From: Lysobacter sp. ISL-50
GTDB taxonomy: Bacteria; Pseudomonadota; Gammaproteobacteria; Xanthomonadales; Xanthomonadaceae
Direction: 5' to 3'
DNA: 56,754 nucleotides
Assembly (NCBI RefSeq): GCF_018612875.1
Contig: NZ_JAGGRI010000022.1
Span: 1-56,754, forward strand
Of this stretch, positions 43,709 through 51,446 are shown piece after piece (position 1 is the stretch's first letter; every line of letters starts with the position of its first letter). The notes under the pieces were generated by a model. It worked only from the letters and a program-made list of their open reading frames with translations, was not told where the DNA came from and did not search any database. The translations under genes and the position numbers were made by a program.

Positions 43709-44596
43709 GTGCAGGACAGCCTGTTGCTCAAGATCGGCCTGCCGATCGCGATCGCCATCATCATGTGCGGCATCGGCCTGACTCTCAGCGGCGAAGACTT
43801 CCGCCGCGTCGGCCGCCATCCCAAGCCGGTCGTGGTCGGCCTGATCGGCCACTACCTGCTACTGCCGGCGCTGGGCTTCGCGGTGGCCTGGATGTTTCCC
43901 GATTCGCTCGAATTCGCGGTTGGCTTCGTGCTGGTCGCGGCCTGTCCCAGCGGCAGCAGTTCGAACGCGCTGACCTATCTGGCCCGCGGCAACGTCGCCC
44001 TGGCGGTGACCCTGACCGTGATCAGCGCGCTGGTGACGTTCGTCAGCGTGCCCTTGCTGGTGAATCTGGCGCTGCAGTGGTTCGGCGGCGAAGCCCGCCA
44101 GATCCGCCTGCCGGTCGCGCAGACCGTGATGCATCTGGCCGCGCTGGTGCTGGTGCCGGTGTTGCTCGGCATGGGCGTGCGCCGGGTCGCGTCGGGTTTC
44201 GCGCTGCGGGTCGAACCGTGGGTGAGCCGGTTCGCGCTGGGGCTGTTGTTGTTGCTGATCGTGGCGATCATCGTGACCCAGCGCGACCTGCTGTGGCGCA
44301 GTTTTCCCGAACTGGGGCCGGCGGCGCTGGGGATGTGCGCGGCGGCGATCGGCGGCGGGTTTTTGCTGGCGCGGATCAGCGGCCTGGCGCTGCGCGATGC
44401 GATCACCGTCGGCATGGAGGTCGGCGTGCAGAACAGCACGCTGGCGATCGTGATCGCGCTGACCTTGCTGCAATCGCCGCAGATCGCGGTGCCGGCGGCG
44501 ATGTACGGGCTGATGATGTATCTGCCGGCGTTCGCGGTGGTGGTGCTGGGGCGGCGCGCGGTGGCGCGCGATGAGGCGCGCGGCGCCGTCGCCTGA
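43709..44596 (+). CDS. Bile acid:sodium symporter (BASS) family protein
   Basis: A 295-residue membrane protein with about nine or ten hydrophobic helices. The FVLVAACPSGSSSNALTYLARGN block is the conserved crossing motif of the BASS family, and EVGVQNSTLAIVIAL is the second crossing motif. Plant and bacterial members carry organic acids such as pyruvate and pantoate, not only bile acids. I chose the GTG at 43709 with AGGAG seven bases upstream. It converges with a PhzF-family gene, and a family E repeat lies in between. Confidence 0.88.
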   Translation: MQDSLLLKIGLPIAIAIIMCGIGLTLSGEDFRRVGRHPKPVVVGLIGHYLLLPALGFAVAWMFPDSLEFAVGFVLVAACPSGSSSNALTYLARGNVALAVTLTVISALVTFVSVPLLVNLALQWFGGEARQIRLPVAQTVMHLAALVLVPVLLGMGVRRVASGFALRVEPWVSRFALGLLLLLIVAIIVTQRDLLWRSFPELGPAALGMCAAAIGGGFLLARISGLALRDAITVGMEVGVQNSTLAIVIALTLLQSPQIAVPAAMYGLMMYLPAFAVVVLGRRAVARDEARGAVA

Positions 44597-44599
44597 GCC

Positions 44600-44690
44600 C
44601 CTCTCCCGTTGACGGGAGAGGGGTTGGGGTGAGGGCGCGCCCTCTTCCGGTCCTTCGGACCACCTTCTCCCGCAAGCGGGAGAAGGGTAG
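44600..44690. repeat. Family E palindromes between convergent genes
   Basis: CCCTCTCCCGTTGACGGGAG and CTTCTCCCGCAAGCGGGAGA are two short hairpins joined by GGTTGGGGTGAGGGCGCGCC. It is the same family as the element inside murL (48973-49112). It likely ends both convergent transcripts. Confidence 0.75.
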
Positions 44691-44693
44691 TAC

Positions 44694-45575
44694 TCAGCGC
44701 CAGTCGATCGTCCCGCGCACCACGTTGCTCACCCGTCCGCCCGACCAGACTTCGCCGTCGGCGTCCACGCGCAGTTCCAGGCGCGCGTCGAAACCGACTT
44801 CGCGGCCCTGGCTGACCGTGTAATGGCCGTCGCGGCCGGGCAGGGCGCCGTTGTGGTTGAGCCATGCCGCCAAGGTGGCGTTGGCCGCGCCGGAGGCGGC
44901 GTCCTCGAACTGCGCCGGCGCCCCGACGAAGGCGCGCACGACCAGATCGTAGTCGCGGCCGGCGTCGGCACGCGCGAACGCGCACAGGCCCATGCTCTCG
45001 GTGCTCTCGGCCAGGGCGCCGATGGCGGCCCAGTCCGGGCTCGCCGCGCGCAGGGCGGCTTCGTCGCGCAGCTCGGCCAGCCACCAGCGGCGGCCGCCGT
45101 CCATCAGCGCCGGCGGCAGCGCGCCCAGGGGCAGGCCGCGCAGGGTCGCGGCCAAGCGCGGGTCGCCCGCGCTGGCGGTCTCGACCACGCGCGCGCGCGG
45201 CGTGCGCACGGCGATCGTGCGCGCCTCGCCCTCGCCATCGACCGCCAGCGGCAACAGACCGGCCACGCCTTCCTGGACCAGACGGCCGTCCACCGGCGCG
45301 GCCAGGCCGGCTTCCAGCACCACGCAGGCGGTGCCGACGCTGGGATGGCCGGCGAAGGGGACTTCGCGGCGCGGGCTGAACATGCGGATGCGGTAGCTGG
45401 CGCCGGGCTGGGACGGCGGGAACACGAAGGTGGTTTCCGGCAGTCGGGTCCAGCGGGCGATGGCCTGCATGGCGGCGTCGTCGAGTCCTTGCGCATCCAG
45501 GACCACGGCGAGCGGATTGCCGGCGCCGGGGCGGTCGGCGAACACATCCAGTTGCAGATAGCGGCGTTGCGTCAT
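44694..45575 (-). CDS. PhzF-family isomerase-like protein
   Basis: A 293-residue protein with the two-lobed diaminopimelate-epimerase-like fold of the PhzF family. The start MTQRRYLQLDVFADRPGAGN, the catalytic Glu (E47 in RLPETTFVF), the FAGHPSVGTACVV loop and the QFEDAASGAANATLAAWL block are all typical. No other phenazine genes are in the window, so phenazine synthesis is not supported; most PhzF homologues have unknown substrates. It diverges from lysAC. Confidence 0.9.
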   Translation of the reverse strand: MTQRRYLQLDVFADRPGAGNPLAVVLDAQGLDDAAMQAIARWTRLPETTFVFPPSQPGASYRIRMFSPRREVPFAGHPSVGTACVVLEAGLAAPVDGRLVQEGVAGLLPLAVDGEGEARTIAVRTPRARVVETASAGDPRLAATLRGLPLGALPPALMDGGRRWWLAELRDEAALRAASPDWAAIGALAESTESMGLCAFARADAGRDYDLVVRAFVGAPAQFEDAASGAANATLAAWLNHNGALPGRDGHYTVSQGREVGFDARLELRVDADGEVWSGGRVSNVVRGTIDWR

Positions 45576-45697
45576 TTCGGGAAGAGGTCCGATGGGCCCA
45601 TGCGGTGGCGGGACAAGGGCGGTGCCAGGGAATAACGATAGAAAAGAATGCGTCGCAAGCTACAGCCAGGGTACGTTCGGGAGCCGGCCAGTTCGAC

Positions 45698-45860
45698 TAG
45701 AATCGTCGCTTCGTGCCCGGCTCCCGGATGAGCGCGCGGCTGTCGAAGGTGCGGCGTCCGCGCGAAGTTCCGCCGGGCGCTGCTCACAAGGCCGCGATTC
45801 TAGGCGCGCACGACCCGCAAGTGTGGAATCCCGCGACGTCCGCATCGACGCCGTCGCGGG
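45698..45860 (+). promoter_or_regulatory. Putative promoter and leader hairpin of lysAC
   Basis: TAGAAT at 45698-45703 is a good -10; the -35 (TTCGGG, 45676-45681) is weak. Downstream in the leader, CCCGCGACG (45830-45838) pairs with CGTCGCGGG (45852-45860). I see no lysine riboswitch features. The gap 45576-45924 contains no gene I can support. Confidence 0.4.
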
Positions 45861-45924
45861 CGGATCGACCTGCCCCGGCCGCGTGCCGGGCCCTAATCGA
45901 AGTGAAACGACAACCGAGGAAGAC

Positions 45925-48534
45925 GTGCAGACGCAACAGACTGGCTGGGTGGTGCTCAAGTTCGGTGGTACCTCGGTATCTCGCCGTAACCGTTGGGACA
46001 CGATCGGACGCCTGGCTGGGAAACGTCTGAAACAAGACGGCCGGCGCGTGCTGGTCGTGGTCTCCGCGTTGTCGGGCGTCACCAATGAATTGCAGGCGAT
46101 CGCCAACGCCCCGGCCGGGGTCGATGACGGCATCGCCGCGCGCTTCGCCGGCCTGGTCGAGCGCCACCGCTCGTTCTGCGCCGAACTGAGCCTGGACCCG
46201 GACACGGTGCTCGGCGAGCGCCTGGCGAAACTGGTTGCGTTGGAAACCGATCCGCGCGCGGCGAACCGCGCGCTGGATTGGCAGGCCGACGTGCTGGGCC
46301 AGGGCGAATTGCTGTCCTCGACCCTGGGCGCGGCCTACCTGCGCTCGCAGGGCCACGACTTCGGTTGGTGCGACGCGCGCGACTGGCTCGACGCGGTCTC
46401 GCTGCCCAACGCCAGCGACTGGGCCCAGCGCCTGTCGGTGAACTGTCGCCATCAGGCCGAGCCCGGCTTCGCCGAGCGCTTCGACGCGCAGCCGACCGCG
46501 ATGCTGATCACCCAGGGCTTCATCGCCCGCCACGGCGACGGCGGCACGGCGATCCTCGGCCGCGGCGGTTCCGATACCTCGGCGGCGTACTTCGGCGCGC
46601 TGCTCAAGGCGCAGCGCGTGGAAATCTGGACCGACGTGCCGGGCATGTTCAGCGCCAATCCGCGCGAAGTGCCCGACGCGCGCCTGCTGGCCCGGCTGGA
46701 CTACGCCGAAGCGCAGGAAATCGCCACCACCGGCGCCAAGGTGCTGCATCCGCGCTCGATCGCGCCGTGCCGCGACGCCGGCGTGCCGATGGCGATCCTC
46801 GACACCGAGCGCCCGGACCTGCCCGGCACGCGCATCGACGCCAGCGCGGTCACCGTGCCCGGCGTCAAGGCGATCAGCCGCCGCAACGGCATCGTGCTGG
46901 TGGCGATGGAAAGCATCGGCATGTGGCAGCAGGTCGGCTTCCTGGCCGACGTGTTCGAACGCTTCAAGCGCCACGGGCTGTCGATCGACTTGATCGGTTC
47001 GTCGGAAACCAACGTCACCGTGTCGCTGGACCCGAGCGAGAACCTGGTCAACAGCAACGTGCTCGAAGCGCTGTCGGCGGATCTGGCCGAAGTGTGCCGG
47101 GTCAAGGTGATCGCGCCGTGCGCGGCGATCACCCTGGTCGGCCGCGGCATGCGTTCGCTGCTGCACCGGCTGTCCGACATCTGGGCCGCGTTCGGCCGCG
47201 AGCGCGTGCATCTGATCTCGCAGTCGTCCAACGACCTCAACCTCACCTTCGTCATCGACGAAGCCGACGCCGACGGCCTGCTGCCGCATCTGCATCACGA
47301 ACTGATCCGCGGCGGCGCCATGCCGGTGCGCGACGAGAGCGTGTTCGGCCCCAGCTGGCGCAGCATCCAGGACGAAGGCAACGGCAAGCCGCCGCGCCCG
47401 GCGCCATGGTGGCGCGGCAAGCGCGCGCGCCTGCTGGCGATGGCCGCGGCCGGCACGCCGCGTTACGTCTACGATCTGGCCACCGTGCGCGAACGCGCGC
47501 GCTCGCTGATCGGCACCCAGGCGGTGGATCGCTGCTTCTACGCGATGAAGGCCAACTCGCATCCGGCCGTGCTCAAGACGATCGTCGGCGAAGGCTTCGG
47601 CCTGGAATGCGTGTCGCTGGCGGAAATCGAGCGGGTGTTCTCCGCGATCCCGCACATGGCGCCCGAGCGCGTGCTGTTCACGCCGAGCTTCGCGCCGCGG
47701 CACGAGTACGAAGCCGCGCTCAAGCGCGGCGTGATCGTCACGCTCGACAACGTCGAAGCGCTCAAGCGCTGGCCGGAGGTGTTCTGCGGCCGCACCTTGT
47801 GGCTGCGACTGGACCTGGGCCATGGCGAAGGCCATCACGAGAAAGTCCGCACCGGCGGCGTCGCGGCCAAGTTCGGCCTGCCGCTGGCGCGTTTCGACGC
47901 CTTCATCGAAGAAGCGCGCAAGCTCAACATCCGCATCAGCGGCCTGCACGCGCATCTGGGCAGCGGCATCGACGATCCGCAGCACTGGCGCGGCGTCTAC
48001 GCCAGCCTCGCCGGTCTGGCCGACAGCGTCGGTACGATCGAGACCATCGACATCGGCGGCGGCCTGCCGGTGGCGTACACGCCCGAAGCGCCGAGTTTCG
48101 ATCTGGCGCAATGGCGCGCCGGGCTGGAAGAAATCAAGGCCGCGTATCCGCGCTACGGCCTGATCATCGAGCCGGGCCGCTATCTGGCCGCCGAAAGCGG
48201 CGTGCTGCTGATCAGCGTGACCCAGGTGATCGAAAAAGACGGCGTGCGCCGGATCGGCTGCGACGCCGGCATGAACGCGCTGATGCGTCCGGCCATGTAC
48301 GAGGCCTATCACGGCATCCACAACCTCAGCCGCCTCGACGACACCCAGGTCGCCGCGTTCGACGTGGTCGGCCCGGTGTGCGAGAGCAGCGACGTGCTCG
48401 GCCGCGCCCGTCCGATGCCGGTCGCCACCGAGGAAGGCGACGTCGTCCTGGTCGCCGACGCCGGCGCCTACGGCATGGCGATGGCCAATACCTACAACCT
48501 GCGCGCGCTGCCGGTGGAGGAGGTGATCGAATGA
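45925..48534 (+). CDS. lysAC: Bifunctional aspartokinase / diaminopimelate decarboxylase
   Basis: An 869-residue fusion that catalyses the first and last steps of lysine synthesis. Aspartokinase domain, about 1-470: VVLKFGGTSVS, VVVVSALSGVTNEL-like text, GRGGSDTSAAY, and ACT-like regulatory domains. Diaminopimelate decarboxylase domain, about 485-869: PLP Lys K542 in CFYAMKANSHPAV, GLHAHLGSGI, IDIGGGLPVAY, EPGRYLAAESG, and CESSDVLG. This fusion is typical of Xanthomonas relatives. The GTG at 45925 follows GAGGAAGAC. Its stop overlaps a 20-residue reading frame that leads into murL. Confidence 0.95.
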   Translation: MQTQQTGWVVLKFGGTSVSRRNRWDTIGRLAGKRLKQDGRRVLVVVSALSGVTNELQAIANAPAGVDDGIAARFAGLVERHRSFCAELSLDPDTVLGERLAKLVALETDPRAANRALDWQADVLGQGELLSSTLGAAYLRSQGHDFGWCDARDWLDAVSLPNASDWAQRLSVNCRHQAEPGFAERFDAQPTAMLITQGFIARHGDGGTAILGRGGSDTSAAYFGALLKAQRVEIWTDVPGMFSANPREVPDARLLARLDYAEAQEIATTGAKVLHPRSIAPCRDAGVPMAILDTERPDLPGTRIDASAVTVPGVKAISRRNGIVLVAMESIGMWQQVGFLADVFERFKRHGLSIDLIGSSETNVTVSLDPSENLVNSNVLEALSADLAEVCRVKVIAPCAAITLVGRGMRSLLHRLSDIWAAFGRERVHLISQSSNDLNLTFVIDEADADGLLPHLHHELIRGGAMPVRDESVFGPSWRSIQDEGNGKPPRPAPWWRGKRARLLAMAAAGTPRYVYDLATVRERARSLIGTQAVDRCFYAMKANSHPAVLKTIVGEGFGLECVSLAEIERVFSAIPHMAPERVLFTPSFAPRHEYEAALKRGVIVTLDNVEALKRWPEVFCGRTLWLRLDLGHGEGHHEKVRTGGVAAKFGLPLARFDAFIEEARKLNIRISGLHAHLGSGIDDPQHWRGVYASLAGLADSVGTIETIDIGGGLPVAYTPEAPSFDLAQWRAGLEEIKAAYPRYGLIIEPGRYLAAESGVLLISVTQVIEKDGVRRIGCDAGMNALMRPAMYEAYHGIHNLSRLDDTQVAAFDVVGPVCESSDVLGRARPMPVATEEGDVVLVADAGAYGMAMANTYNLRALPVEEVIE

Positions 48535-48593
48535 AACCGACTCCGTCCACGGCCCGCGCGCGCATCGCTTCGATTTCGGGAAAACGCTTGTGA
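48531..48593 (+). CDS. Possible 20-residue leader peptide linking lysAC and murL
   Basis: A reading frame of 20 residues ([20 protein letters not shown]) starts within the lysAC stop (ATGA) and ends on a TGA that overlaps the murL GTG (GTGA). If translated it would carry ribosomes from lysAC to murL. The ribosome-binding sequence upstream (GGAGGAGGTGATCGA) is strong. No homologue is known to me, and it may be chance. Confidence 0.35.
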   Translation: MKPTPSTARARIASISGKRL

Positions 48594-50068
48594 GTGCTCA
48601 ATTCCAGCGCGACGCGGTGCGCGCCTTCCGTTTCGTCCGCTGCGGCCTCGACGCCGCGACCGGCGTCGCCGAACTGGTCTATGCCTTCGACGACGGCCCG
48701 GAGCTGACCGAGACCATCACCATTCCCGGCGCGCCGTTCGCGCTGGCCGGCGCGCGCGCGCATGCGGTCGAGCGGGCGCTGCGCTTGCTGCATCTGATCG
48801 CCGGCGTGAGCTATTACAAGGCGGCGGTGCCGGAAGAGATCCGCATCGATTCGTATGCGATCGATGCCGACACCGCGGCGCTGCTGGAGCTGATCTACGT
48901 CAACGGGCTGGGCGAATTCGCTTATCGCAATGGCCTGGATCTGCACGGGAAGATTCGTTTTCCCGTGGGCGAGGGCGTGCCCTCACCCCAGCCCTCTCCC
49001 GCAAGCGGGAGAGGGAGTTCTTCAGAAGCACCGCCACTGCTCCCTCTCCCGCTTGCCACCCAAGGTGACTTCCTTCGGGGCGCGGGAGAGGGCCGGGGTG
49101 AGGGCTGCGCCCCAGCATTGGGCCTGCGCCAACACGCCCTGGTCGCCATCGGCGGCGGCAAGGATTCGCTGGTCAGCATCGAAGCCCTGCGCGCGATGGA
49201 GATCGGGCAGACCGTCACCTGGATCGGCGGCTCGCAGCTCATCAAAGCCTGCGCCCAGCGCACCGGCCTGCCCACGCTCAATCTCGGCCGCGCGCTGGCG
49301 CCGCAGTTGTTCGAACTCAATCGCCAGGGCGCCTACAACGGCCACATCCCGGTCACGGTGGTGAACTCGGCGATCATGGTCCTGGCCGCGCTGCTGCACG
49401 GCGTGGATCAGGTGGTGTTTTCCAACGAGCGCTCGGCCAGCTACGGCAGCCTGATCGAGGGCACGGGCGAGGTGAACCACCAGTGGTCCAAGGGCTGGGC
49501 CTGCGAACAGGCATTCGGCGATTACGTCCAGCGCCATGTCGCCGCCGATCTGCATTACTACTCGCTGCTGCGTCCGCTCAGCGAACTGGCGGTGGCGCGG
49601 CAGTTCGCCCGCACCGATCGCTACGACGCGCATTTCAGCAGCTGCAATCGCAATTTCCATATTCTCGGCGAGCGGCCGGTGAGTCGCTGGTGCGGGGTGT
49701 GTCCCAAGTGCCACTTCGTGTTCCTGGCGCTGGCGCCGTTCATGACCAAGCCGCGCCTGGTCGGCATCTTCGGCCGCAATCTGCTCGACGATCCGGCCCA
49801 GACCGACGGCTTCGACGCGCTGCTGGAATACCGCAACCACAAGCCGTTCGAATGCGTCGGCGAGGGCCGCGAATCGCGCGCGGCGCTGGCGGCGTTGGCC
49901 GAACGTCCGGAATGGCGCGAGGACGCCCTGGTCGAACGCTTCGCGCGCGAGATCCGTCCGCAACTCGGCGACGACGATCTGCGCATCGAACCGCTGCTGA
50001 CGCTGGACGAAGAACAGCGCCTGCCGCCGCCGTTGTGGGAACGCTTGCGTGCGTATTTCGCAGCTTGA
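48590..50068 (+). CDS. murL: UDP-MurNAc-L-alanyl-L-glutamate epimerase MurL, with translated repeat insert
   Basis: MurL epimerises the terminal L-Glu of UDP-MurNAc-L-Ala-L-Glu to D-Glu using ATP. The 492-residue protein has the ATP-loop [17 protein letters not shown] (GGGKDS at 188-193), [32 protein letters not shown], and [18 protein letters not shown]. About residues 127-176 ([20 protein letters not shown]... onward) come from a family E palindrome (48973-49112) and are unlike the rest. The frame is preserved. Start is GTG 48590. It overlaps murD2 by 20 bases, which supports the pathway assignment. Whether the insert is tolerated or active is unknown. Confidence 0.88.
48973..49112. repeat. 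Family E palindromic element inside the murL coding sequence
   Basis: A left arm (48973-49002, GGGCGTGCCCTCACCCCAGC...) is nearly complementary to a right arm (49082-49112). Inside it lies the short hairpin CTCCCGCAAGCGGGAG. The unit is about 140 bases long and matches the extragenic copy at 44600-44690. It encodes the Ser/Pro/Gly-rich stretch of MurL. Confidence 0.85.
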
Positions 50069-51446
50069 AGGCCAGCGCGTCGCGCTGTGGGGCTGGGGCC
50101 GCGAGGGACGCGCGGCCTATCGGGCGATCCGCTCGCGCCTGCCCGAACTCGCGCTGACCCTGTTCTGCTCGCCGGAAGAAGCCGCTGAAGCCCGCGGCCT
50201 GCACGATCCGCGCCTGAATATCGAAACCGCGGCCAGCGCCGAACGCCTGAGCGCGTTCGACTGGGTGATCAAGTCGCCCGGCATCAGCCCGTATCGCGCC
50301 GAGGCCCTGGCCGCGGCCGAACAGGGCACGCGCTTCATCGGCGGCACCGCGCTGTGGTTCGGCGAGGACATCGGCGGCCGCACGATCTGCGTGACCGGCA
50401 CCAAGGGCAAGAGCACCACAACCTCGCTGCTGGCGCATCTGCTGCGTGCAGGCGGCCATCGCACCGCGCTGGTCGGCAATATCGGCGTGCCCCTGCTGGA
50501 AGTGCTGGAGCCGTCGCCGCCGCCGGAATTCTGGGCGATCGAATTGTCGAGCTATCAAACCGGAGATGTCGGCATGGGCGGCGCTCGGCCGGACGTCGCG
50601 ATCGCGCTGAACATCTATCCCGAACACCTGGACTGGCACGGCTCGCAAGCGCGCTACATCGAAGACAAGCTGCGCCTGCTGACCCAGGGCAAGCCGCGCA
50701 TCGCGGTGTTGAACGCGAACGATCCGGTGCTGTCCGCGCTGCAATTGCCCGACAGCCGGATTCATTGGTTCGGCGATGAGGCCGGCTGGCATCTGCGCGG
50801 CGACGCGCTGTGGCGCGGCGATCGCGAAATCATGGACACCGCCGCGTTGCCGCTGCCCGGCCGCCACAACCGCGGCAATCTGTGCGCGGTGCTGACCGCG
50901 ATCGAAGCGCTCGGCATCGACGCCGCGCCGCTGGCGCCGCACGCGGCGAGCTTCAAGCCCTTGCCCAACCGCCTGCAGCCGATCGGCGCGCGCGACGGCA
51001 TCGCCTATGTCAACGATTCGATCAGCACCACGCCGCATGCGACCTTGGCGGCGCTGGAATGCTACGCCGGCCGGCGCATCGCGCTGCTGGTCGGCGGCCA
51101 CGACCGCGGCGTGGAATGGCGCGGCTTCGCCGAGGCGATGCGGCGGCAGGCGCCGCTGGCGATCGTGACGATGGGCGAGAACGGTCCGCGCATCCACGAG
51201 CTGCTGGCGCCGGTCGCGGCGCAGGCCGGATTCCATCTGAGCGCGGCGAAAGATCTCGCCGACGCGATGGAGCAGGCGCGCGCAGCGCTGGGCGGCGAGG
51301 GCGGCGTGGTGTTGATGTCGCCGGGCGCGCCGAGCTTCGGCCCCTATCGCGATTACGTCGCGCGCGGCCGCCATTTCGCCGAACTGGCCGGGTTCGATCC
51401 CGATTCGATCAGCGCGATCGCTGGTCTGGGAATGGGGGGCGGTTGA
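50049..51446 (+). CDS. murD2: UDP-MurNAc-L-alanine:L-glutamate ligase MurD2
   Basis: MurD2 adds L-glutamate (not D-glutamate) to UDP-MurNAc-L-Ala, making the substrate of MurL. The 465-residue Mur ligase has the ATP P-loop [12 protein letters not shown] (GTKGKS at 117-122), the [10 protein letters not shown] block, [26 protein letters not shown] and the C-terminal [17 protein letters not shown] and [12 protein letters not shown] motifs. The pairing with MurL distinguishes it from housekeeping MurD. The GTG at 50049 lies inside the end of murL. A 28-base inverted repeat follows. Confidence 0.9.

Follow-up and report, generated by a model that had tools for sequence, protein, structure and literature searches.

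Recurrent palindromic repeats at one interdomain loop site of the predicted epimerase MurL

Judged from sequence comparisons, the interdomain loop of MurL is a recurrent hotspot for palindromic repeats across the family, and the sequences of these repeats differ by lineage. One of them lies in frame inside the murL gene of the window, the whole stretch of DNA that was analysed (56,754 nucleotides from Lysobacter sp. ISL-50). The initial annotation had recognized this repeat, which is located at 48979–49106 within the open frame 48590–50068 and has matches to the MurL profile on both flanks, and had overlooked that the same site is used throughout the family.

The murL gene and its insert

The murL gene (48590–50068, plus strand) encodes a protein of 492 residues. 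The whole protein matches the profile NF041275 with a score of 804.8 bits (E value of 1.5e-242), above the cut-off of 700 bits, and in the genome search this profile is covered in two stretches, positions 2–125 and 128–446 of 447. The next gene (50049–51446, plus strand) encodes a murD2-like ligase, with a match above cut-off to TIGR01087 (murD) at 50049–51443. Based on the NF041275 score and this murD-type neighbor, the product of murL is predicted to be the MurL epimerase. MurD2 and MurL have been described as partners in one pathway (PMC8788868).

The insert consists of two palindromic units in opposite orientation (head-to-head), with a short spacer between them. The left unit (48979–49017, plus strand), which encodes 12 residues, contains CCCTCACCCC at 48980–48989 and hairpin arms at 48992–49001 and 49006–49015. 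The spacer (49018–49040, plus strand) was read from the sequence. The right unit (49041–49106, minus strand) is inverted relative to the left one, with arms at 49042–49051 and 49083–49092 and a tail, GGGGTGAGGG, at 49095–49104. The stretch between its arms is roughly 30 bases longer than that of the left unit. Copies of the right unit with 97% identity are found elsewhere in the window genome (G000), for example at C31:135511–135578 and C20:67835–67900. The region 48960–49120 has a folding energy of −116.6 kcal/mol (z of −9.9), forming one long nested hairpin, and none of 200 dinucleotide shuffles reaches an energy as low.

The reading frame is open over the insert. Such repeats are often free of stops in frame because they are GC-rich, and for the window insert this is true for four of the six frames. 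The loop has 62 residues in the window protein versus 22–23 in the 15 members of the genus that lack an insert, so that about 40 residues are added; the extra stretch reported in the initial annotation is therefore real, while its length had been given as about 50. In a scan for promoters and terminators, no promoter-like site was found, and the one terminator-like site, at 48607, is outside the insert (mean of 0.9 in shuffled sequences). A search of Rfam with the region 44500–50100, at E values up to 1, gave no match in the insert and two matches at an intergenic copy (described below), both under the gathering score.

The mean pLDDT of an AlphaFold model of the window MurL is 88.4, and residues 130–170, which correspond to the insert, are its sole segment with a pLDDT below 50. 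The suggestion in the initial annotation that the segment may be tolerated as a surface loop is supported by this model. The insert connects the N-terminal domain to one that is most similar in fold to QueC, a PP-loop ATP enzyme (E value of 1.7e-4; TM-score of 0.59 by target length and 0.29 by query length). It is positioned, as had been noted, just before the GGGKDS motif (49151–49168, plus strand; residues 188–193), which lies where the ATP-domain fold begins and is invariant across 70 aligned MurL sequences. A QueC-like fold of this second domain fits the AMP-forming reaction that has been described (PMC8788868). A sequence search of the PDB with MurL found no solved relative at E values up to 1.

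Dispersed copies of the repeat

The palindrome CTCTCCCGCNNGCGGGAGAG has 98 exact sites in the window genome, compared to none for the reversed control pattern. A BLAST search with the insert against its own genome gives 92 pieces, including three at the locus of the insert itself, where one palindromic site may yield two pieces, and the best matches reach 100% identity over about 40 bases. The extragenic copies that the initial annotation had expected genome-wide do exist, and the repeat resembles a REP in being a small palindrome with a high copy number and a mostly intergenic location. The ends of the window insert carry neither GTAG nor CGTC, the tags of the REP superfamilies of those names.

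Related palindromes are located in the window at 44598–44687, between convergent open reading frames ending at 44596 (plus strand) and 44694 (minus strand). Two palindromes fill this gap (44597–44693) almost entirely. The likeness between the insert and this intergenic region was correctly recognized in the initial annotation, as their local alignment score is 62 while 300 mononucleotide shuffles score 38 at most, and this copy is absent from the 92 BLAST pieces.

In-frame copies are rare in the window genome, in agreement with the initial annotation. Among 61 repeat clusters (55 stretches around copies among the matches listed, together with the murL locus), two are clearly in frame within genes. 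With a test based on codon usage, 3 of the 61 clusters are called in-gene versus 446 of 1000 positions picked at random in the window (p of 2.5e-11); this test misses part of the coding sequence, as only 446 of the random positions are called. It replaced an earlier test, by which 162 of 400 random positions in the window and 221 of 400 in locus L105 were called in-gene. The third in-gene call (L126) proved on reading to be upstream of a start. Besides murL, the second in-frame palindrome (L109:3587–3652, corresponding to about 137585–137662 of G000:C31, minus strand) gives an insert of 31 residues in a mutase-type gene that we take to be icmF-like, with Pfam matches to methylmalonyl-CoA mutase, MeaB, and the B12-binding domain. 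The palindrome separates the MeaB match from the main mutase match, and the frame in which the repeat is read differs from that in murL.

The sole match to PF01797 (RAYT-like) in the genome (L202, G000:C4:66206–66529) is flanked by GTAGGAGGGGCTTCAGCCCC repeats, and its 3.3-kb locus contains neither GGGAGAGGG nor GGGTGAGGG on either strand. An origin of the window repeat from this RAYT-like gene is therefore not supported, as the flanking repeat is different. The description of the insert as a mobile-type palindrome holds for its copy number, with 98 sites and 92 pieces, and finds no counterpart in the RAYT-like gene. The GTAGGAGGGGCTTCAGCCCC repeat type also occurs within the MurL loop in other genera, as in L170.

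The MurL loop in relatives

The usual length of the loop in orthologues is 21–23 residues. MurL is found in all 20 genomes of the genus that were searched, with a long loop (at least 32 residues) in five and a loop of 22–23 residues in the other 15, and the loop frame is free of stops in all 20. Long loops are present in 17 of 77 relatives. These are the best 80 loci from named contigs except for L090 (lacking the N part), L101, and L104 (both distant), and two of them (L025 and L026) duplicate genus genomes (G011 and G017). The C part of MurL is found in 80 of the best 80 loci and the N part in 79. One of the contigs, with Bacillus subtilis SK7B5 in its title (L027), has a murL that groups with Stenotrophomonas, and the assembly is probably mixed or mislabelled.

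In the family as a whole, MurL is present in 390 of 395 genomes, and at least 42 of the 390, including the five genus members, have a loop of 32 or more residues; this count is based on match coordinates for about 150 and 80 genomes among those listed, from which 40 with long matches were taken. Long loops are found in 37 of these 40 loci (L162–L201), which are excluded from frequency estimates because they had been chosen for their long matches. Among 80 genomes listed, 13 have a MurL match that is split by an insert, and all the splits are between profile positions 122 and 138. Four other genomes with two matches (G033, G295, G350, and G392) are explained by a contig end, a frame break, or a partial match.

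Outside the family, a MurL match is found in 121 of 126 genomes of the order, and among the matches listed one genome (G443) is clearly split at the same site. This genome belongs to another family of the order, and a near-perfect long palindrome is located at its MurL site (L203, G443:C235; fold z of −13.4). Three MurL matches (G405:C1:42870–44153, G414:C46:29762–31048, and G488:C85:14297–15607) contain one in-frame TGA, which could reflect recoding, a pseudogene, or an error; G405 and G414 share a genus.

Of 140 loci, 139 yielded a loop sequence, and 128 distinct loops remained after removal of duplicates. The length is a multiple of three in all 128. A strong fold (z below −3) is predicted for 29 of the 50 loops with at least 96 nucleotides, compared to none of 50 controls of the same length from the same genes, and the other 21 long loops lack such a fold, which fits decay or another type of expansion. 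Clustering by BLAST places the long loops in a group of 33 (by single linkage on GC-rich sequence), a group of 7, and ten singles, including L189 (fold z of −7.5). GTAG is found next to the arms in the inserts of L087, L042, and L170. The loop in L169 (947–1297) has a palindrome followed by a short unit, RGEGEISSAPAH, that is repeated head to tail.

Four palindrome types in these loops have no BLAST link to each other. The GGGAGAGGG type, to which the window insert belongs, has 26–92 pieces in its own genome (6 of 6 genomes), the GTAGGAGCG/SRLKPLLQ type 33–115 (6 of 6), the GTAGCCCGGG type in L042 16 (1 of 1), and the L164 type 51 (1 of 1), where the pieces include both strands and the sites are fewer. 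As each of the four unlinked types has multiple copies in its own genomes, one site in MurL has been used by different repeats. The initial annotation had considered the same segment at the same place in distant relatives; segments are present at this place, but with different sequences and often of other palindrome types, so that repeated insertion is a better reading than one ancestral feature.

On a tree of 128 MurL sequences with the loop omitted, the loop must change between long and short 23 times, and 15 of these changes are forced by starred branches. The tree is from a quick search with SH-aLRT support only, and L088 and L190 were moved to 'other' by eye. Five of the long loops belong to one genus, and some are inherited, as those of L017–L019 have a common middle part and were probably passed on together, whereas the middle part in the window strain is different. 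Among the 20 genus genomes, the nearest one (G009, locus L013), which is 97.8% and 97.6% identical to the window over 370 and 900 flanking bases, has no insert, but the DNA of its loop retains a scar-like remnant resembling the right end of the window palindrome. This seems consistent with the in-frame removal of 117 bp between two 12-base stretches of similar sequence (read by eye), and the remnant would then mark a loss. No pair of filled and empty sites with a clean junction or a target duplication was found, and the insertion event itself was not seen.

Origin of the long loops and relation to known systems

We consider it likely that these palindromes are passively tolerated in a permissive linker of MurL, with recurrent gain and loss. 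Short GC-rich palindromic repeats would spread through Lysobacteraceae genomes, probably by transposition, and land anywhere, and selection would purge nearly all the copies in genes. The MurL loop would be one of the few sites where a stop-free, in-frame copy can persist, translated as a disordered loop rich in Ser, Pro, Gly, and Glu, and the inserts would later decay, be replaced, or be removed by in-frame deletion. The enzyme presumably works with the loop present, and the loop may be neutral. If chance insertion and tolerance acted alone, insertion should follow the repeat load. Within the genus this is observed, with medians of 128 palindromes in the five genomes with an insert and 35 in the 15 empty ones (p of 0.007, ignoring kinship and with G009 counted as empty). 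In the 60 other genomes, however, the medians are 14.5 and 15.5 (22 and 38 genomes; p of 0.12), and over all 80 genomes p is 0.09. Repeat load as the sole driver was rejected, as the relation is seen only within the genus. S. maltophilia carries GTAG-tagged SMAG-type REPs, and the short loops in its loci among the relatives, despite this expected supply, also argue against tolerance.

The hairpin could instead have a function, with mRNA structure slowing ribosomes between the MurL domains or adjusting how much MurL is made relative to MurD2, and with repeated recruitment of unrelated palindromes. The strong structure of 29 of the 50 long loops, the meeting of palindromes of different clusters at one domain border before the ATP domain, and the position of murD2 directly after murL are in favor of such a role. 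It is nonetheless unlikely, as 60 of the 77 orthologues manage without a long loop, a strong fold is missing from 21 of the 50 long loops, G009 seems to have lost its insert, and there is no terminator-like site at the insert. The linker could similarly be a selected landing pad, where unrelated palindromes are kept because a hairpin or a disordered linker tunes co-translational folding or enzyme dose, and we regard this version as doubtful to the same degree.

A preference of the palindrome-moving machinery for the murL DNA itself would explain why inserts are found at this site in many lineages. However, four or more palindrome types are present there, and empty relatives vary in the DNA of their loop, so that a common target of unrelated machinery is less likely than a common tolerance, and we consider such a preference improbable. 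It is very unlikely that mobility played no part, with slippage, duplication, or gene conversion in a low-complexity linker creating only an apparent likeness to intergenic repeats. Tandem or Ala/Ser-rich loops with no demonstrated dispersed palindrome (such as L169, L088, and L193) could have arisen in this way, but the palindromic loops match many copies in the same genome, including the long perfect matches of the window insert. An error of sequencing or assembly, or a dead gene, might be suspected from the 72 contigs of the window genome and from a MAG locus (L052) with a stop in the read-through; it is extremely unlikely, given that inserts are also found in single-contig genomes (G003 and G004), that the frame is stop-free in every genus genome, and that the window MurL scores above the profile cut-off.

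With passive tolerance as the preferred reading, the MurL loop provides a setting that gene-by-gene descriptions, the usual form for intragenic palindromes, do not: one loop of a conserved enzyme in many lineages. Its empty, filled, decayed, and scar-like states together form a natural series for timing the conversion of repeat into protein, from which gain and loss could be measured and tolerance separated from use. Differences in MurL length are often derived from repeats and do not imply functional domains, which is relevant as the pathway has been proposed as a drug target (PMC8788868).

Intragenic REPs and in-frame palindromes are already known; as far as the literature was searched, the novel aspects are the gene, how many lineages are affected, and the occurrence of several types at one site. 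The search covered MurL palindromes, Lysobacter REPs, and GGGAGAGGG, and returned no title on a MurL insert, although supplements could hold one. Palindromic elements inside protein genes of Rickettsia (RPE) were reportedly described by Ogata in 2000 and 2002. GTAG and CGTC REPs are reported inside open reading frames of several species, commonly as dimers or groups, and the intragenic-REP section of that paper, whose additional file could name further genes, mentions neither murL nor a cell-wall gene (PMC3733652). The GGGAGAGGG type of the window differs from these REPs in that its ends lack both tags. Different REPs are described at nearly the same position of recB in X. campestris and X. 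oryzae (PMC3733652), a precedent for a common site in two species, in contrast to the 23 changes on the 128-sequence tree for MurL. The coding palindromes in Nematomorpha (PMC6649704) are likewise long inverted repeats within coding sequence, but they are in animal mitochondrial genes, as described there, rather than being dispersed bacterial repeats. In its in-frame position within a coding gene, the window insert resembles the RPE (PMC10969869, PMC3733652), and it is not classified as one. Like the MurL inserts, the RPE are described as palindromes of several families that lie in frame in unrelated genes and are translated as an extra peptide. The RPE, however, are described in many genes, whereas MurL has one site with many insertions of different repeats.
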